Origin: Flavobacteriaceae bacterium
GTDB taxonomy: Bacteria; Bacteroidota; Bacteroidia; Flavobacteriales; Flavobacteriaceae
Assembly: GCA_017857815.1 (NCBI GenBank)
Contig: JAFMCL010000017.1
Span: 1-58,221, forward strand
Direction of reading: 5' to 3'
DNA: 58,221 nt
Shown: one piece after another, positions 49,150 through 58,209 of the stretch
Layout of the letters: each line of letters opens with the position of its first letter
Position numbering within the stretch: the first letter of the stretch is position 1
Program-made: the position numbers and the translations under genes
Notes under the pieces: model-generated
The model's input: the letters and a program-made list of their open reading frames with translations, nothing else
Told to the model about the DNA's origin: nothing
Databases searched by the model: none

Positions 49150-51123
49150 ATGAAAATATTCAATTCATTTTTTTGTTTTTTATTTCTATTTAATCTTACT
49201 GCTCAAAGCGACAGCTTAAGTCAAAAAATTCAACTGAAAGAAGTCACTTTGGACGCTTCTAGAATTAAAAGTTCAAATAAAACATTGCCTTTTGCCGTTA
49301 GCCATCAAAAATTTTCCCAAACACAAGAGGCCTATCAAGGAGCTTCCCTGCAAGATTATTTGAATAATGTTCCGGGATTGTTTACTCAAAACACCCAAAA
49401 CTTTGCACAGGATCTACGTCTTTCGATACGGGGGTTTGGCGCCCAATCTGGTTTTGGCATTCGTGGAATTAAATTGATAGTGGATGGAATTCCTGAAACA
49501 ACCCCCGACGGTCAGGGACAATTGGACAATTTAGCATTGGGTTTAATTCAAGAAATAACTGTTCTGAGAGGGCCCGCCTCTACTTTTTATGGAAATGCTT
49601 CGGGAGGCGTGATTCAAATCAAAACCCTTACTGATTTTGAGAAAGATTTTATTCGATTAAGAGCCCAAGGCGGAAGTTATGGTACGACTTCTTTTCAAGC
49701 GATTGCCGGATGGAAAGGACAAAAAACCAAAGCAGTTGTTTATCAAAACCGAACGCAGTCTGACGGCTATCGCGATCATGCCCGATACAAACAAAACGTT
49801 ATTAATGCTAGGGTTTGGCATCAATTTTCAAACACTTCGCAGTTAAGTTGGCAATTTAATTATACGGACAGTCCTTACGCTTATGATGCGGGAGGAATAA
49901 ACATCGAGTCGGTCAATACAAACAGAAATCAAGCACGTTCTCAGAATATCGAATACAATACTTTTGAATCCGTTAAACATTTAAAAACCGGTCTACAATG
50001 GGAAGAATCTTTGGGAGATCATTTGACCTTAACCAGTTATGCTTTCTATGCCCACCGTGATTTTGATGGCAAACTTCCTTTTGAATTTGGAGGTATTGTT
50101 GATTTAAAAAGAAATTATTATGGATTAGGAACCGCATTGGAATATCAAATCAGTCCGAATCATCGGATGCAATTCAGGGCTTCGCTTGCGGATCAAAAAG
50201 ACCAACGCAATCGCTATAAAAACCTTAAAGGAAGCAAAGGTGACGCAACGCTTTCACAAGAGGAATTGTTTTATAATGCTGCGCTCAGTGTTTTAGATGA
50301 ATTCAAATGGAGTTTTGGACTTTTACGTACCGGATTGCGTTATGACTTTCAGCGTTTGGGAACCGACGCAAAAGTCAACCTAAACGTGGTGAATCCCAGT
50401 ATTGGCTTTACGTTTACGGATTTTGGAAATCATGTGCTTTATACTTCTTTTTCAACCAGTTTTGAAACCCCAACACTCAGTGAGCTTTCTGCTAACCCCA
50501 CGGGTGAACCTGGATTTAATCAAGATTTGAGCTCCTCAAAAGCCACCAATTTCGAATTGGGATGGCGCTACTTTTCTGGTTCAGACCGACTGGAAGCTTC
50601 TTTGTTTTTAATTAATACCCAAAACGAGATTCTGTCTTATGAATTAGAGGCTTTTCCAAACAGAGATTTTTACCGCAATGCAGGAAAAACCCAGCGAAAA
50701 GGAATTGAAATATTCTGGGAGCATTCCGACGGTGCTTGGCAATGGAACACCTCCTATACTTTTGCCGCTTTACTTTTTGATCAAGCCGGCAGTCTGAAAG
50801 GCAAACATTTGCCTGGAGTTCCTCAGCATCAGTTTTTTGGAACGCTTCAATATCAATTTCCATCCGGACTCGGCATCGAATACCAAGCCAGGCATACTGG
50901 ATCACTTTTTGCCAATGACGCCAACACCACCAAAGTTGACGATTATTTTTTATCCAACCTGCGCCTTTGGAAAAAATTTGGAAAATTTGACTTTTTCTCT
51001 GGCGTTAACAATCTGTTAGACAAATCCTATTTCGACAACATTCGCATCAACGCCTTTGGCAAAAGGTTTTATGAGCCAGCACCTCAACGCAATTTTTACA
51101 TCGGAATGAATCTTTCTATTTGA
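49150..51123 (+). CDS. TonB-dependent outer-membrane receptor
   Basis: This 657-residue protein has a signal peptide (1-18). It has a short TonB box-like start (LKEVTLDASRI), a plug domain at about 40-150 (SLQDYLNNVPGLFTQN, SIRGFGAQSGFGIRGIKLIVDG, VLRGPASTFYGNASGG) and a 22-strand barrel ending in an aromatic-rich C-terminal strand. It lacks the CarboxypepD_reg extension of SusC, and no SusD is nearby, so a siderophore, vitamin or metal ligand is more likely than a glycan. It overlaps the integrase gene end by 8 bp, convergently. Confidence 0.92.
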   Translation: MKIFNSFFCFLFLFNLTAQSDSLSQKIQLKEVTLDASRIKSSNKTLPFAVSHQKFSQTQEAYQGASLQDYLNNVPGLFTQNTQNFAQDLRLSIRGFGAQSGFGIRGIKLIVDGIPETTPDGQGQLDNLALGLIQEITVLRGPASTFYGNASGGVIQIKTLTDFEKDFIRLRAQGGSYGTTSFQAIAGWKGQKTKAVVYQNRTQSDGYRDHARYKQNVINARVWHQFSNTSQLSWQFNYTDSPYAYDAGGINIESVNTNRNQARSQNIEYNTFESVKHLKTGLQWEESLGDHLTLTSYAFYAHRDFDGKLPFEFGGIVDLKRNYYGLGTALEYQISPNHRMQFRASLADQKDQRNRYKNLKGSKGDATLSQEELFYNAALSVLDEFKWSFGLLRTGLRYDFQRLGTDAKVNLNVVNPSIGFTFTDFGNHVLYTSFSTSFETPTLSELSANPTGEPGFNQDLSSSKATNFELGWRYFSGSDRLEASLFLINTQNEILSYELEAFPNRDFYRNAGKTQRKGIEIFWEHSDGAWQWNTSYTFAALLFDQAGSLKGKHLPGVPQHQFFGTLQYQFPSGLGIEYQARHTGSLFANDANTTKVDDYFLSNLRLWKKFGKFDFFSGVNNLLDKSYFDNIRINAFGKRFYEPAPQRNFYIGMNLSI

Positions 51124-52159
51124 CCGAATTAAGCTTCATCACACCCTCCATAAAAGCATCGGCATAGTTGTCTCGGTTCGGATCGCGACCGATGTATCCC
51201 ATAAAGGTGCTTTCTTTAGAGTGTCCCGTCATGGTCATTAAAATTGGTGTTGGAATTTTACCAAAAAAATTGGTGGCAAACGATCGCCGTAAATCGTGTG
51301 AACAGATCACCGAATACTTTGGATAAATCCCCAATTCCTTTCGTTTGGTTTTTTTATTAAATTTAGACCCCCTCACCATTTTAGTAATTCCTGCCTTTTG
51401 CAAAACCAATTTCAGGTAACAATTGAAACGTTGTGCGGTCAGTTTTCTCGGAAAATTATTTCTTAATATTTCCATTGCCAAGGGGTCAATGACCCCTATG
51501 GTTACTTTTTTATCTGTTTTCTTTTGAAGAATGTCAACATAAACTCCCCCATTTGGGGCGTCTCTGAGTTGATCTGGCGTAATGGTCAATAGATCCGAAA
51601 CCCTTTGTCCAATCCAAAAACCGATGATCAACCAATTGCGAACATTTTCTAAATGTTTTTTGTCCAACGCCACTTTTTCAATCTTTTTTAAATCTTCAAA
51701 ACTCAGGATGTTGATGATCTTTTTGTCACCGCGTTGCGAAAAGCCCGAGATGTGATTGACATAATTGTGGGTGGGCAACTCATTTTTTTTAGCATCGAGG
51801 GCGAGCGTTTTAAGGGTCATCAAAATTCTACCTGCATGGTTCTCACTGTAACGCCTTTCTTTTAACAGCCACTCCGTGAAGTTCTCTACCAAATTCCGAT
51901 TTAGATCCATAAAGGTCAATTCATGGTACCGGATGTGGTCTTGGAAATTTTTGATGTGTAATTTAAAATTGATATAATTTAAAACGGAACTTTTACGCAG
52001 TCCGATTTCCCCATTTTGTTTTTTACGATACGGCGCATGCAAAATAAATTCTTCGAGATAATCGAGGATTTTAGTTTTGCATTCCTTTTCGGAAAACGGG
52101 TTTAAAAAGTCATTTTTTATAGGCATGGCAAATGGGGCTTGCTTAGCGATTAACATCAT
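51116..52159 (-). CDS. tyrosine recombinase / site-specific integrase
   Basis: This 347-residue protein has an N-terminal SAM-like core-binding domain (about 20-145) and a C-terminal catalytic domain. Arg186 (GQRVSDLL), Lys in QKKTDKK (about 212-218), His288-x-x-Arg291 (SHDLRR), His313 (MTGHSK) and Tyr322 (FMGYIG) are all present, so the enzyme looks active. It lacks an excisionase or phage neighbours. The adjacent gene is a 5'-truncated surface-protein copy, which raises the possibility of a DNA-inversion or cassette role. Its start overlaps no other gene. Confidence 0.92.
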   Translation of the reverse strand: MMLIAKQAPFAMPIKNDFLNPFSEKECKTKILDYLEEFILHAPYRKKQNGEIGLRKSSVLNYINFKLHIKNFQDHIRYHELTFMDLNRNLVENFTEWLLKERRYSENHAGRILMTLKTLALDAKKNELPTHNYVNHISGFSQRGDKKIINILSFEDLKKIEKVALDKKHLENVRNWLIIGFWIGQRVSDLLTITPDQLRDAPNGGVYVDILQKKTDKKVTIGVIDPLAMEILRNNFPRKLTAQRFNCYLKLVLQKAGITKMVRGSKFNKKTKRKELGIYPKYSVICSHDLRRSFATNFFGKIPTPILMTMTGHSKESTFMGYIGRDPNRDNYADAFMEGVMKLNSVK

Positions 52160-52207
52160 AAATATAGTTTTTTATTACAGAGCTGTTTTTTTCATAAGAT
52201 TTCCCCA

Positions 52208-52248
52208 TAAAAAAACGCCCTCAAATTTGTTTCGATTTGGGGGCGTTT
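52208..52248 (-). terminator. rho-independent terminator (distal of two)
   Basis: A 14-bp stem (AAACGCCCTCAAAT at 52213-52226 with ATTTGGGGGCGTTT at 52235-52248, one G-T pair) is followed on the minus strand by a T run. It lies downstream of the truncated surface-protein gene. Confidence 0.85.
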
Positions 52249-52251
52249 GAT

Positions 52252-52283
52252 AAAAAACCCCTTCAATTAGGAAGGGGCTTTTG
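52252..52283 (-). terminator. rho-independent terminator (proximal of two)
   Basis: The stem CCCCTTC (52258-52264) pairs with GAAGGGG (52271-52277), followed on the minus strand by a T run (A run at 52252-52257). It is the nearer of two terminators behind the truncated surface-protein gene, so its transcript end is fully preserved. Confidence 0.87.
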
Positions 52284-52325
52284 AAATGTGAACTTTAAAT
52301 AGAATTTAAAGCGAAATATTTAGGC

Positions 52326-54455
52326 TTAAAACAGAGCCAACTCGTTGGCAATATTAACTCCTGAGCCAATTCCACTAAACGAACCAGCAGGCGCACCATT
52401 ATCAGACTGATTGTCTTCAAGAGTTGTCGGGTCTGAATCCGGACCTGCATGAGCAACAGTATCAGCATCCAAAAGAGAGGACAATGTAACAGTTTCTGTT
52501 GCAGAAGTTGCAGTGTTGTCAACTGAATCCAATCTAAGGTCATAATCCACAGGGGCAGTTCTGGTTTGCCCAGTATAAGCAGTAATAAAGGTTTTGAAAG
52601 AGGTGATCTCCGCAGAGGTACCCGCTGCAGGCACATACGCAGATGTCTCAGTTGCCGCCACAGCAGGCGTGTAAGTACCCGACAGTTTGTTACCTCCAAT
52701 TATAACGCTGATTGGAGCAACAGGCTCTGCCAATTGATCTGAGCCTGAAGCTGGCGCGATGATCGACGTTAGCAAGATGTTGTCAACTATAATAACGGTC
52801 TTAACTTTTCCAAGAGAAGACAAATCAACTGCAGTAATTTTTGGGTTACTAACGATTGTTACTTCAGACGCATTGTCTCCATCTAGATGAGAATGACCAA
52901 AATCAAATGTTTCTAAGGATGCATTGTCGAAGACATTTATGTAGATAATAACCCCTGCAGTACTCAAGGAAGTCAAAGCTGAGTTATCTACATCAAGAAA
53001 TCCTAAGTAACTATCCTCACCAAAACTAAGTGTGGTAAGAGATGCGTTGGCGGCGGTTATACGCAGAGTATTATCCTGAACACCAGGACCAACTGGAGTT
53101 TTTTGCGCACCAGTATAGTCTAGTGTTGCCATCGCTACTGCAGTTGATACGTTTATATCACCAACCTGTCCGACAAGGGTCAACTGTGTAAGATTGCCAA
53201 AGTCAAGAATCTTGGTTACGTCAGCAATACTTTTTAATTCATAAGTACCACCATCTTTAATATCAACCGTACCAGTGGTTGTGGTGTATTTTGGTGCGCT
53301 GAAAGATTCAGCTTGTAGAGCAACAAATCCTCCTTCAAGTGTCGTCAACTCAGGCAAAGAAACTGCTGTAGGCCCAACCAAAGTAAGGGAGTCAGTAGTG
53401 GTTTTTAAAGCAGATAAATCTACAGTAGTTGCAGAAAGTGTGGTGGCACCTGCAATCGTTGTTAAACCAATTGCTGAAATCTCCGTGGCATTAACATTTA
53501 AGGCTACAGCAGTAGTTATTTTGTCCAAATTTACAGCTCCAGTAGAGGTAATGGTTACAGTTCCAGTAAAACCAGTAGCATTTAAATCAAAAGTGGCATC
53601 GGCTCCACCCACAGTGATGGTTGTATCCGTTTGTGCGGCACCATTATAGGTAGAAACAAACTCAGTTGCTTTAGGTAAGTTAACAGTGGCTGGCAATACA
53701 CCGGGTATTTTTACAATAATTGCGTTGGGTAAATTAACTTCAGACCCTGTAGTACTGGTTGTAAAAGTTCCAGCGGTTAAACCAGAGAAGTCAACACCTG
53801 TCACAGTAGATGTTTGAGAAAGGACAATCCCTCCTGAAACAGTACTAAGCCCAGGATAAAAGATATCTCCTGCAACGTCAATGGCCAGTGCGCCGTCTAC
53901 AGTGGTAAGTGCAGCAGCAGCTATAGCACCCGTTCCAGATAAACTAAGACCTCCTGTAACATATCTTAAGGTTGCAAGATCAACATCCGAATTGGAAGTG
54001 ATGGTTGCGGTTCCCATAACTACTTTAAGCTTTGTAAGTAGCGCAGTCAAACTTGCTTGGCTAGAGGCCAAGGATGCATCACTATTATCGATATCAACGT
54101 TTCCGTTAACCGTAATGCCAGGATCGTCCGCACCAATACTTATACGCTCCAAAGCCAATTCGAGTTGAGTAAGATTTTTGATGACTAAATTTCCCTCATA
54201 AGCGGCATCAGCGGCCAAAAGCGTTTGCAATTGTGCAAGAATTAGATCTACTTCTTCGTTTAATCCAGCAACTTCTTCATCTGTTTCAGAGAGGTCTGAA
54301 AGAGCGTTTTTTACCGTTGCAATGTCTTCTAGAAGGGAGGTCATTTCTTCCTCACTCAAAGCACCTGCTTCTATTGCGTCGATTTTGTCACCTAAAGCAT
54401 TGACTGTACTCGTAATCCGAGTTGAACTTTTTGCTAACTTTGAAATAAAATTAAT
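52326..54455 (-). pseudogene. 5'-truncated Thr/Ala/Ser-rich surface protein (paralogue of the gene at 56053)
   Basis: The minus-strand frame encodes about 700 residues homologous to the lipoprotein at 56053-58209. Shared blocks include a coiled-coil region (LSEEEMTSLLEDIATVKNAL), a beta-solenoid of Thr/Ala/Ser/Val-rich strands (FGHSHLDGDNASEVTIV, VDLSSLGKVKTVIIVDN) and an ELALF C-terminus. It has no lipoprotein signal. Upstream of about 54455 the frame only shadows the dacB gene. The first in-frame ATG (54344) falls inside the coiled coil. So it has lost promoter, signal and about 40 N-terminal residues. It may be a dead copy, or a silent cassette, since the rest of the frame is intact. Confidence 0.8.
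54398..54421 (-). repeat. imperfect inverted repeat, copy in truncated gene
   Basis: Read on the minus strand, this 24-nt segment matches 19 of 24 positions of 56180-56203, with GGATTACGA and CAGTCA identical and a 3-nt mismatch between. It sits about 35 bases from the point where the truncated copy's coding identity is lost, and the reading frame is the same in both copies. Confidence 0.4.
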
Positions 54456-54456
54456 C

Positions 54457-55752
54457 TTGAAAAAACAAGGCTTACTCCTTTGCTTTCTTTGCCTTACAAC
54501 CGCACTGTCAGGACAAAAAACATCAAATAAAAAGATTGAACGCCAAATTGATAAAATTACTGCTTTCCAAGGCGCACACATAGGAATAAAGGTTTCTGCA
54601 GTTTCCTCCTCCAAATCAAGGGCAGAGTATAATGCACATGATTATTTTACTCCAGCCTCGAATGTTAAAATCATCACATTCCTTGCGGCTTTGCAGACTT
54701 TTGATGCGCTTCCAACGCTTCTTTATTTTAAGACTCCTTCGGGGACGTTACATTTCACAGCAACCGGCTATCCGCTTTTGCTCCACCCAAAATATCCCGA
54801 TCATGAGCTCTTCCGTTTTTTGAACCAGCAGAAGAAGCTGGTCTACCATCTGCCCCAAGAGTCCCCAACCAGACTGGGAGCTGGATGGTCATGGGACGAT
54901 CAGCAGTATTATTTTTCTGCTCAAAAAAGCGCCTTTCCTATTTATGGAAATGTGGTTCAATTTTATCAGGATACTTTATCCAAGGATTTTGTGGCGAAAC
55001 CGAGTCGTTTTCAAACCCACTTTTTTTCCCAAAAAAAGAAGATTTTACCCTTGAAGGAATTTTCCTACAAATATGATTTTAATCCTAAAAATTTGACCCC
55101 TCAAGACACGCTCCTAAAACCCTTCCCAACCAGTCCAAAACAGTTTGTGGATTTACTCTCGGAAGCAACCCAAAGCAAGGTTGAAATCGATTCACTTCCT
55201 TTTCCTAAGGATCAAATACAAAGTGTTTTTTATACCCATCAGGAGGAAAAACTATACAAGGCCTTACTCCAAGACAGTGATAATCTCATTGCCGAATCGT
55301 TGCTGTTGATGATTGGAAAAATTAAAAACGACACCTTAAACACCAAAAAAACAATTGATTACTTAAAAATCAAATGGCAAGATGATTTTTCTGACCCTCT
55401 CATTTGGGCAGATGGATCTGGGGTTTCTCGTTACAATCTTCTGACGCCAACGATACTTGTGGAGGCACTTCAGAAGACTTATTCGATCCTGGGTTGGGAC
55501 AAAATAACATCCCTTTTTCCTGCGGGAGGAATTTCTGGCACGATTTTAAATTATCACAAAGACGCTCCTGCCCCCTATGTTTTTGCAAAAACTGGAACTT
55601 TAAAGAACAATATTAGTCTTTCGGGTTTTTTCATTGGAAAAAATAATCGCATTTATGTGTTTTCTATTTTAGTCAACAATCACACCTCTTCAAACGAAGC
55701 CGTTCGAGAAGGGATTGCCACTTTAATTCGATTTTTTAGAAAAAAATATTAG
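54457..55752 (+). CDS. dacB: D-Ala-D-Ala carboxypeptidase/endopeptidase (PBP4 type)
   Basis: The TTG at 54457 is the likely start because it leads into a signal peptide (MKKQGLLLCFLCLTTALSG); further upstream the frame shadows the surface-protein gene. The 431-residue product has the penicillin-binding motifs SxxK (Ser68-Lys71, PASNVK), SDN (DSDNLIAESLLLM) and KTG (FAKTGTLKN). It is a periplasmic S13 peptidase that trims or cleaves peptidoglycan crosslinks. A TAACTTTG box at 54435-54442, which fits the -7 consensus, lies inside the truncated gene's end. It has its own terminator. Confidence 0.93.
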   Translation: MKKQGLLLCFLCLTTALSGQKTSNKKIERQIDKITAFQGAHIGIKVSAVSSSKSRAEYNAHDYFTPASNVKIITFLAALQTFDALPTLLYFKTPSGTLHFTATGYPLLLHPKYPDHELFRFLNQQKKLVYHLPQESPTRLGAGWSWDDQQYYFSAQKSAFPIYGNVVQFYQDTLSKDFVAKPSRFQTHFFSQKKKILPLKEFSYKYDFNPKNLTPQDTLLKPFPTSPKQFVDLLSEATQSKVEIDSLPFPKDQIQSVFYTHQEEKLYKALLQDSDNLIAESLLLMIGKIKNDTLNTKKTIDYLKIKWQDDFSDPLIWADGSGVSRYNLLTPTILVEALQKTYSILGWDKITSLFPAGGISGTILNYHKDAPAPYVFAKTGTLKNNISLSGFFIGKNNRIYVFSILVNNHTSSNEAVREGIATLIRFFRKKY

Positions 55753-55893
55753 TCCTAAATCCTGCAAGAGCAATATTTACCGAAGATTCTAACAATGTTT
55801 GTTCATAAGTATAAGGTCAGGGAGTATTAAACATTATGGTCTTTTTAATAATTTTATCATGATACCGTTAGACTAAAAAAACCTTTTAAACTT

Positions 55894-55926
55894 TCCTCTT
55901 GTTTCAAAAACAAGAGGATTTTTTTG
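55894..55926 (+). terminator. rho-independent terminator of dacB
   Basis: A perfect 11-bp stem (TCCTCTTGTTT at 55894-55904 with AAACAAGAGGA at 55908-55918, loop CAA) is followed by a T run. It lies 142 bp after the dacB stop. Upstream (55753-55893) I see no gene. Confidence 0.9.
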
Positions 55927-55955
55927 TAAATAGACAAGGTTTGGCATCATATTTG
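55924..55955 (+). promoter_or_regulatory. candidate promoter of the surface lipoprotein gene
   Basis: TTG at 55924-55926 and CATATTTG at 55948-55955 (one mismatch to TAnnTTTG), 21 bp apart, fit the Bacteroidota promoter pattern. The predicted 5' untranslated region would be about 90 bases and AT-rich just before ATG 56053. Confidence 0.4.
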
Positions 55956-56052
55956 TATCAATGGAACTCGAAACGTTTGCACCTTGTGGGAAACCCTCAC
56001 GATTCGCAAACATAATTTAAACATTATTAATATTAATTTAATTTTTATCAAA

Positions 56053-58209
56053 ATGAAAAAAGGTTTATTAAGTCTTTTGGTAGTTGCGCTAACGGTTGTT
56101 GGCTGCCAAGATTATGATGATCAATTTGACGGTCTTAACAAAGAGATTTTGGCCCTCAAAACCAGCCTAAGTGATTTGTCTGGGATTACGAAAGCAGTCA
56201 CTGATCTTACAGCAGAAGTTACTGCTTTAAAAGCTGTTGACGTTGTCGATGACGCTGAATTTAAATCTCTTCTTACTAAAGTAGCTACAGTACAAGCTGC
56301 TGTTGACGCAATCACACCTGCTGATGTTTCTGGTATCGAAACAGAAGTAGCTGATTTGAATTCTGAGATTGCACAGATTTTAGAGCAATTAGTTGCTTTG
56401 AACAAAGCTGGTTCAAGTTACCAAGGTGATCTTACGATTAGAAGCCTTGCAGAACTTGGAATAGCTGAAGATAACCTCGGTATTGATCCAACTGCAACAG
56501 AATCTTCTACGGCTGCTTCCTTAGCAAACGTTACAGGAAATGTCCATATCACTGCTGATGCAACTGATTTGGCTACTGCTGCGATTCAAGCTAGATTAAA
56601 TACTGTGATTAGCAGAATAAAAACAGTTGCTGGTTCCGTAACAATTACTGGAATTGACGCTGCTTTAAGCGCTGCCGAATTAACTTTTGTAGGAGGTACT
56701 GCAGAATTTGAAGGAACGAATACAATCGGACTTCCAAAATTGTCTAATGTAATTGGACGTGTTCATTTTGATCTAGCCGGAGCACTTGATTTTCAGGTAC
56801 TTGCGTCTACGACTTCAGTTGTGATTTCTCAGGCTTCGTCTGTAACAAGTGTTAATCTTGTAGGTCTTCTTAAAGGTGAGGTTACCACTGCTGCAGGTAA
56901 ACTTGTTCTTCCCGATGCAACATCAGTAATATTGTATTCTGCGCCAGCATCAGTTACCTTAGCCTCAGCCGAAACAGTTCAAATTCACAATGTAGCGGCT
57001 AACAAAGGATTGGATCTTGCTGCGCCTTCGGCTACATCAGTAGTAGTTTTAGCAGCTTCAATTACTGGAGCGGTTACAATAACAGCTAACGCTGCGACTG
57101 TAGACCTTTCTTCTGCAAATTTAGGAGGGGGTACAATTTCAGCAGCTACTATAAATGCTAATACGGCAACCACTGCCTCAGCAACTACGCTTTCAGCGAC
57201 TACTATTTCTTTGGCTGCACTTACAACAATTGGTACTGGCGGTTTAAATTATAATGGTCCACTATCTTTTAGCTCTTCTACTCTTGCTACAGCACCTGGA
57301 AACTTTGTATCAACTACTGCAACTGCTTTCACTGCGCCTGCGTTTACTTCAAATGCAACCGGAACTATTGATTTGAAAGATGGAGCGGTTGATATCTCAA
57401 TTTTAAGTATTACTAACACTACTACTATAAAGGATTATGCTACCATAGCTAATTTAACGCTTGCCGGACAATTGGGAACACTTGATGTTCTTCCTCTTAC
57501 AAAAATGGTAACACTTAACTATACTGGTGTTGCTGTTGCTACTGGAGATTATGCAAACGATTTGGCTATTACCTCTGCTAATGCGTCTTTGACAACTGTT
57601 GTTTTAGGTTCAACGAATGAATTAGAGTCTTTCACAGCTTCTGCAACAGCACTTACATCGCTTTCAACGAATGGTGTAATCCTTGACCTGATTGTAACAA
57701 GAAATATTGCTTTAGAAACGCTTTCGTTTGGACATACTCACCTTAACGGTCAAGAAGCAACTACTGTTAAAATTGATGGTAATACTGACCCATTGTTTGT
57801 AGCTGTTGACATGTCATCTCTTGCAAAAGTGAAGACAGTTGTTATCACTGGTAATACATCTTTGACGGCTATTACTCCGCCGAGTGCAACAGTTTTAGCT
57901 GAGCCTACTGCTACGATTAGTTTAACAGTAACAGGCAACCTACTACAAGGAACTTATAAAGCTGCTGTACCTGGAACTGATACTACTGCAGCTGCTTCTC
58001 ATCAAGCAACTTCAACGGTAATCACTGCGTTTAAAGTTTTAATTGACGCTTACGATGCTCAAGCTACTAGAACAGTTACTGTAACGTATAGCTTAGGGAT
58101 TGATGCAGTTGATAATAATGCTGATGGTGCCTTTGATAATGGAAATTCTGCTGCACAAGCAGGTATTACTGGTGATATTGACACTCCTGCTGAATTAGCA
58201 CTCTTTTAG
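56053..58209 (+). CDS. Thr/Ala/Ser-rich surface lipoprotein, coiled coil plus beta-solenoid
   Basis: ATG 56053 opens a lipoprotein signal (MKKGLLSLLVVALTVVGCQD, Cys18); a longer frame from 55984 has no function for the extra residues. The 718-residue product has an N-terminal coiled coil (about 25-130) and then a long region of short Val/Thr/Ala strands resembling a receptor-L/BspA-like solenoid, ending in ELALF like its paralogue. It has few charged or aromatic residues. It is probably cell-surface displayed and adhesive or antigenic; ligands are unknown. The paralogue at 52326-54455 shares this plan but lacks the signal. Only 12 bp of the window follow the stop. Confidence 0.85.
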   Translation: MKKGLLSLLVVALTVVGCQDYDDQFDGLNKEILALKTSLSDLSGITKAVTDLTAEVTALKAVDVVDDAEFKSLLTKVATVQAAVDAITPADVSGIETEVADLNSEIAQILEQLVALNKAGSSYQGDLTIRSLAELGIAEDNLGIDPTATESSTAASLANVTGNVHITADATDLATAAIQARLNTVISRIKTVAGSVTITGIDAALSAAELTFVGGTAEFEGTNTIGLPKLSNVIGRVHFDLAGALDFQVLASTTSVVISQASSVTSVNLVGLLKGEVTTAAGKLVLPDATSVILYSAPASVTLASAETVQIHNVAANKGLDLAAPSATSVVVLAASITGAVTITANAATVDLSSANLGGGTISAATINANTATTASATTLSATTISLAALTTIGTGGLNYNGPLSFSSSTLATAPGNFVSTTATAFTAPAFTSNATGTIDLKDGAVDISILSITNTTTIKDYATIANLTLAGQLGTLDVLPLTKMVTLNYTGVAVATGDYANDLAITSANASLTTVVLGSTNELESFTASATALTSLSTNGVILDLIVTRNIALETLSFGHTHLNGQEATTVKIDGNTDPLFVAVDMSSLAKVKTVVITGNTSLTAITPPSATVLAEPTATISLTVTGNLLQGTYKAAVPGTDTTAAASHQATSTVITAFKVLIDAYDAQATRTVTVTYSLGIDAVDNNADGAFDNGNSAAQAGITGDIDTPAELALF
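56180..56203 (+). repeat. imperfect inverted repeat, copy in intact gene
   Basis: This is the partner of 54398-54421, in opposite orientation on the plus strand. The two arms bracket 1.8 kb containing dacB plus the promoter and signal peptide of the intact lipoprotein gene. An inversion between them would keep the reading frame. Confidence 0.4.

Follow-up and report, generated by a model that had tools for sequence, protein, structure and literature searches.

A headless surface-protein body beside a resident tyrosine recombinase at a surface-lipoprotein locus of a Flavobacteriaceae bacterium

Is a truncated surface-protein gene that lies next to an apparently intact tyrosine recombinase one arm of a switch, or a gene that has simply lost its 5′ end? 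The question is raised by contig JAFMCL010000017.1 of a Flavobacteriaceae bacterium (assembly GCA_017857815.1, referred to as G000; 2.2 Mb, 99.6% complete), and the window analyzed here is this entire contig of 58,221 nucleotides (C18). The locus holds four elements: a recombinase gene (INT) and a headless surface-protein body (BodyB) on the minus strand, and dacB and an intact surface-lipoprotein gene (SurfA) on the plus strand. SurfA, BodyB, and their homologs are called Surf genes below. The initial annotation had described this layout of recombinase, truncated body, dacB, and opposed intact paralogue, which is confirmed by open reading frames, homology, and Pfam, and had proposed that it works by inversion or as a silent cassette. 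We consider the most likely reading, and a probable one, to be that a paralogue lost its head recently and lies beside an old recombinase bound to this locus. The genus-level search comprised 22 genomes, G000 counted among them, and the stretch following the TonB-dependent receptor (TBDR) gene was inspected in 12 of these (G000, G003, G007, G010, G011, G013, G014, G015, G016, G019, G020, and G021).

BodyB (52326..54422, minus strand) retains an intact frame. Its open frame extends from 54614 to the stop at 52326, and homology to SurfA begins only at 54422, which corresponds to SurfA codon 43. The dacB upstream region (54420..54456, plus strand) directly abuts this point with no gap, followed by dacB itself (54457..55752, plus strand), a D-Ala-D-Ala carboxypeptidase gene of the S13 type (PF02113) with a probable TTG start. 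Because dacB's own upstream region occupies the DNA before codon 43, BodyB lacks a Surf start codon, signal, lipobox, and promoter, and with that DNA gone it is silent at present. The 3′ end is complete, and two strong intrinsic-terminator hairpins (52214..52282, minus strand; RNA fold z of −4.40) lie between BodyB and INT. A gene with a full 3′ end and two terminators but no promoter, signal, or start is what had been annotated, together with the remark that a simple 5′ deletion would account for it equally well. That alternative explains more than inversion does.

The beheading is likely to be recent, or else the body is still under selection. BodyB has no stop in 698 codons. In a neutral-decay simulation of its frame (no indels, 300 copies per step), about 2.5 stops accumulated at 0.05 substitutions per site and 11 at 0.3, and the frequency of copies with zero stops fell from 0.57 at 0.01 to 0.36 at 0.02, 0.08 at 0.05, 0.003 at 0.1, and 0 at both 0.2 and 0.3 substitutions per site. 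The TBDR genes of G000 and G021 differ by a dS of 0.55, half of which is about 0.28. The absence of stops suggests either that BodyB lost its head long after the lineages of G000 and G021 had separated or that selection still acts on the body.

INT (51116..52159, minus strand) encodes a 347-amino-acid protein that matches PF13102 and PF00589 above the cut-off and phrog_1 (integrase) in PHROGs; a PDB sequence search with it gave no match. The residues R, K, HxxR, H, and Y, which we take to be the catalytic set, are found at the expected positions and are conserved across relatives in the alignment, so that the recombinase appears intact, as annotated. With its catalytic PF00589 and SAM-like PF13102 domains and its phrog_1 match, INT resembles XerC/XerD-type and phage-type recombinases, but it scores far below the cut-offs for XerD (28 of 329.6 bits) and archaeal XerA (25.8 of 220 bits), and it sits at a surface locus. 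A scan of a collection of genome contigs with INT returned 2 loci, one of which holds a 34% relative. Among the 12 genus loci, the full-length gene is present only in G000. A partial INT in G019 is 78% identical over 144 residues, as far as the contig end, and a scar of the INT 3′ end follows the TBDR gene in G010, G011, and G016 (in each of the three, none of 100 shuffles did as well). No significant remnant was found at the locus in the other seven genomes (G003, G007, G013, G014, G015, G020, and G021). The scars and the partial copy imply that INT predates the losses and has resided here for a long time; judged from these sequences, it is a long-established, locus-bound gene that the genus is losing, not a newcomer.

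Among the 12 genomes inspected, the two sisters G016 and G021 are the only others with dacB between the TBDR and Surf genes, and its orientation relative to the Surf head is constant in all three. Both have the order TBDR-dacB-Surf, without BodyB and full INT. Homology to G000 breaks at 51178 in G016, within the last INT codons, and at 51133 in G021, just after the TBDR gene; in both it resumes at 54420, which coincides with the end of BodyB. Frameshifts occur in several conserved genes of both sisters, whose assemblies look error-rich, and gene decay is therefore not to be read from them. Taking these frameshifts as a sign of Surf decay was considered and rejected, as the TBDR and dacB genes of G016 and the ligase genes of both genomes are broken as well.

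A second genus provides a comparable arrangement. Pirin, INT, and a Surf body lie on contig C135 of genome G205, with no TBDR gene between pirin and INT, and the order and strand of INT and Surf are those of INT and BodyB. The G205 INT is 59% identical at its C terminus and is split over two frames with stops. Its spacer to Surf contains hairpins comparable to those after BodyB, plus a 19-nt match to the window. Contig C42 of the same genome carries Surf, a family-4 glycosyltransferase gene, and an O-antigen ligase gene in the order usual for the genus of G000; should C135 and C42 be neighbors, this genome would likewise have a pair of opposed Surf genes, one of them followed by INT. The four contigs of G205 with Surf all stop within the 5′ part of the gene, and two of them, C30 and C46, start with the same 55 nt (our count), which indicates that the Surf 5′ part is repeated in this genome. 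The contig ends may thus represent repeated 5′ parts that the assembly did not resolve. In tests of ancient against recent paralogy of BodyB, trees constrained to hold it either with the INT-side gene of G205 or with SurfA were both retained (p-AU of 0.186 and 0.245), and the BodyB branch length (0.58 to 0.64) is inside the range of intact genus relatives (0.035 to 1.11).

The anatomy, the missing head, the residence of INT, and the unbroken frame are observed, and we infer that BodyB was formerly a whole gene in this position. The locus would have held a minus-strand Surf gene with INT behind it (BodyB and INT), and SurfA is its second Surf gene, on the plus strand. In the lineage of G000 the minus-strand gene would then have been beheaded through loss of the DNA before codon 43, either by plain deletion or by a rearrangement associated with dacB, probably recently and without INT as the cause. 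This account is supported by the abutting dacB region, the junction of the sisters at 54420, the INT scars, and the broken INT with Surf in G205, as well as by the lack of a convincing crossover repeat and by the single leader.

The competing explanation that survives best, although we regard it as unlikely, is that of a head-swapping switch. INT would invert about 1.8 kb (54.42 to 56.18 kb, dacB included), and the sole promoter, start, and signal would alternate between the two bodies. In its specific and equally doubtful form, the switch would operate in a non-parasitic member of the Bacteroidota: the resident INT, from a clade tied to surface-polysaccharide loci, would move the single sigma-54-type promoter and signal between opposed bodies via an in-frame core of about 9 bp, and G205 would hold a sister system. 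INT is intact and adjacent, there is one head for two opposed bodies with both frames intact, and BodyB and full INT are jointly absent from G016 and G021. The recurrence of the INT-Surf order in G205, whose Surf contigs break off in the 5′ part, agrees with this as well. Comparison of the two borders, the BodyB start and SurfA codon 43, gave as the best inverted match 54398..54421 (the first 24 nt of BodyB homology, read on the plus strand) against 56180-56203 (SurfA codons 43 to 51), with 19 of 24 positions identical, in frame, and including the exact 9-mer TCGTAATCC. No other window among the first 300 of the BodyB/SurfA codon alignment is as good, and it is the only, if weak, candidate for a crossover site. 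However, the match is marginal: in two tests, 5 and 4 of 100 shuffles equaled it. Paralogy can produce it, since 32 of 1930 alignment windows (itself included) are equally good, though its position directly at the BodyB edge deserves notice. Near-identical inverted repeats were not found at the head/body borders, where this match with its single exact 9-mer is the best, and no convincing crossover pair was identified at the borders or around INT.

The distribution of heads also argues against a switch. Two heads had been envisaged by the initial annotation as the sites of inversion; the intact lipoprotein head of SurfA is the sole head at the locus, which leaves no pair of heads for recombination, and the 39-nt core of its leader and head is single-copy in the window. 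The swapped N termini that might have been expected in related genomes were not seen either: the order and orientation of dacB and the SurfA head are uniform in the three genomes with dacB here, two of which lack full INT, and neither an opposite orientation nor a swapped head was present in the relatives examined. The headless body is found at 1 of the 12 genus loci, with the G019 contig ending before the place and the G010 and G011 contigs ending inside Surf. A second repeat, an imperfect inverted one (16 of 18) around the SurfA promoter and start (55870..56075, with arms at 55870-55887 and 56058-56075), was matched by 0, 1, and 0 of 100 shuffles in three tests. It has no counterpart in 10 of 10 relatives, which is weak evidence because none of the 10 keeps an intact INT at the locus. 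What stands of the silent-cassette or inversion reading is the silent headless body, its kept frame, and the resident recombinase; inversion itself, with no border repeat like those of the mycoplasma and ureaplasma switches and one orientation in the relatives seen, is not supported.

Known switching systems resemble the locus in part. Inversions at Bacteroides surface loci act at inverted repeats around promoters, and Bacteroides belongs to the same phylum as this bacterium; no convincing repeat pair was found here. Two accounts place such inversions at capsule and outer-membrane-protein loci (PMC4747536 and PMC5903667), and one of them names a serine recombinase, Mpi, as the master enzyme of B. 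fragilis and includes one flavobacterial sample with inversion signatures (PMC5903667). In vsa of Mycoplasma pulmonis and MBA/UU172 of Ureaplasma, inversion places a promoter and 5′ head before silent bodies (PMC3047005), and hvsR, a tyrosine recombinase gene, lies near vsa (PMC2268961). The present locus is similar in having a recombinase gene and one complete gene with an opposed, headless, frame-intact body. The ureaplasma loci differ in their inverted repeats of 21 nt and, by our count, 36 nt and their demonstrated switching; neither is found here. The Vpma system of Mycoplasma agalactiae likewise has a tyrosine recombinase gene (Xer1) beside a variable surface-lipoprotein family, but its recombination sites are situated in each gene's 5′ leader and share a 21-bp identical stretch (PMC2268961), whereas here the leader is single and BodyB has none. 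The mycoplasma and ureaplasma systems considered here use at least 21 identical bases, although shorter sites are cited for other systems (PMC3047005 and PMC2268961). Among the titles and abstracts listed in searches on flavobacterial cases and on recombinase-linked polysaccharide loci, none dealt with this locus.

Still less probable is that BodyB serves as an archive from which SurfA is rewritten by homologous recombination, without INT. The conserved SurfA leader and head (56010..56109, plus strand) are 99% identical to G021 and 95% to G016, while the SurfA body is 44 to 68% identical to G021 per 100-nt window and dacB 84%; a sharply conserved head with a variable body appears to be the Surf pattern. 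This contrast and the intact BodyB frame would suit such a donor. However, BodyB and SurfA are 41 to 42% identical over 651 aligned codons, their overall nucleotide identity of 52% is low for frequent conversion, and the longest identical run in the codon alignment is 11 bases. BodyB is also no closer to SurfA (41%) than to 5 of 7 other genus Surf genes (42 to 47%).

Joint arrival of INT and BodyB as a small mobile element between the TBDR and dacB genes is the least probable explanation: INT belongs to an integrase family and the two almost exactly fill the stretch missing in the sisters, but the INT scars and the G019 copy indicate long residence, the ends carry no significant direct repeat (10 nt at best, equaled by 6 of 100 shuffles), the window has no tRNA, and the headless body is the only cargo. 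A recent insertion was rejected, as the site in G010, G011, and G016 bears INT scars and is not cleanly empty.

Several observations weigh against the recently beheaded paralogue that we prefer. The beheading of BodyB and the loss in the sisters end at the same base, which would call for a shared cause, perhaps selection that retains the dacB promoter. The intact frame fits a sometimes-expressed body equally well. The 24-nt inverted match falls exactly on the first codons of BodyB, in frame and without an equal in the first 300 windows, and a complete BodyB at this spot was found in none of the genomes seen.

SurfA (56053..58209, plus strand) encodes an intact lipoprotein with a signal, a lipobox, a coiled coil, and a probable beta-solenoid. 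A sigma-54-like promoter motif, TGGCAT-N5-TTGTA, precedes it (55942..55957, plus strand), and all 11 Surf genes examined (SurfA and 10 relatives) have TGGCAY-N5-TTG at a distance of 78 to 111 nt upstream of the start codon, with a strongly conserved AT-rich leader 3′ of the motif. This suggests control of the Surf lipoprotein by RpoN. The AlphaFold2 model of SurfA (3 sequences; mean pLDDT, 62.6) predicts a helix for the signal, a coiled-coil part, and a body that is rich in strands and resembles a solenoid. A fold search with the model gave 115 matches, none at an E value of 0.001 or better among solved structures, and a PDB search with the Surf profile gave weak coiled-coil matches only. Pfam, NCBIfam, and PHROGs held no family for SurfA or BodyB.

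The usual order in the genus is pirin, TBDR, Surf (plus strand), a family-4 glycosyltransferase gene of the MraY/WecA-like type (minus strand), and O-antigen ligase (plus strand), with Pfam assignments for G020. The TBDR gene (49150..51123, plus strand), whose tail overlaps that of INT by 8 bp, is a conserved left neighbor of the Surf locus in the genus. On the right, contig C50 of G000 matches the glycosyltransferase gene from its base 3 onward, with about 31 residues missing, and the spacing between the Surf and glycosyltransferase stops is 52 to 80 nt in six relatives; we infer a gap of about 130 to 170 nt between the window end and C50. The initial annotation had suggested a look for further paralogues beyond 58221. 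None is expected, because synteny puts the glycosyltransferase gene next, and an additional copy past the contig end was rejected as C50 begins with that gene. A third, more distant Surf paralogue of G000 is located on contig C51. The locus is best explained as a site for surface lipoproteins that borders a cluster of surface-polysaccharide genes.

The relatives of INT occupy similar places. Surroundings were read for 18 of them (the nine closest read and nine more distant), covering part of the places listed, and neighbor genes were named by Pfam in some cases and otherwise by our own reading. All nine of the closest are located at surface-polysaccharide or Surf genes or close to them. Those of G019 and G205 are at the Surf locus itself, and those of G259 and G208 have a cytidylyltransferase gene, of the type present in the genus cluster, two or three genes away. 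In G339, G495, and G504 they are near glycosyltransferase, polysaccharide-export, and chain-length genes, and in G565 and G665 the nearby genes, about 5 to 8 kb away, encode a glycosyltransferase or UDP-sugar dehydrogenase. Only two of the nine distant relatives (G612, G605, G673, G147, G348, G145, G042, G206, and G193) are near polysaccharide genes, namely, CpsB/CapC and a Kdo transferase in G348 and a sugar-nucleotide epimerase/dehydratase in G145. G495 and G504, which belong to one genus and have INT beside a polysaccharide-export gene, show no inversion (93.5% colinear over 2719 nt) and no strong inverted repeat that would support a switch.

Two further features of these relatives were recorded. 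The upstream region and first codons of INT in G495 or G504 are 79 to 80% identical to those of G259, a member of a different family, over 224 to 228 nt, and comparisons with G339 reach 88 to 92% over 68 to 105 nt; this reflects either recent transfer or a conserved site. The shared stretch includes a short palindrome, possibly within the first INT codons. In G208, nucleotides 1 to 82 of contig C22 repeat a portion of its INT gene (1172 to 1253) exactly, in inverted orientation, possibly from a second INT copy or an assembly artifact.

If switching were true, head swapping of the type found in mycoplasmas and ureaplasmas, which are host-bound, would be extended to a bacterium that probably lives free, and the driver would be phage or grazer pressure instead of immunity. 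If there is no switch, the locus documents a recombinase clade that sits at surface-polysaccharide loci and is repeatedly lost, and it offers a clear example of a paralogue that was beheaded recently and is datable in related strains.

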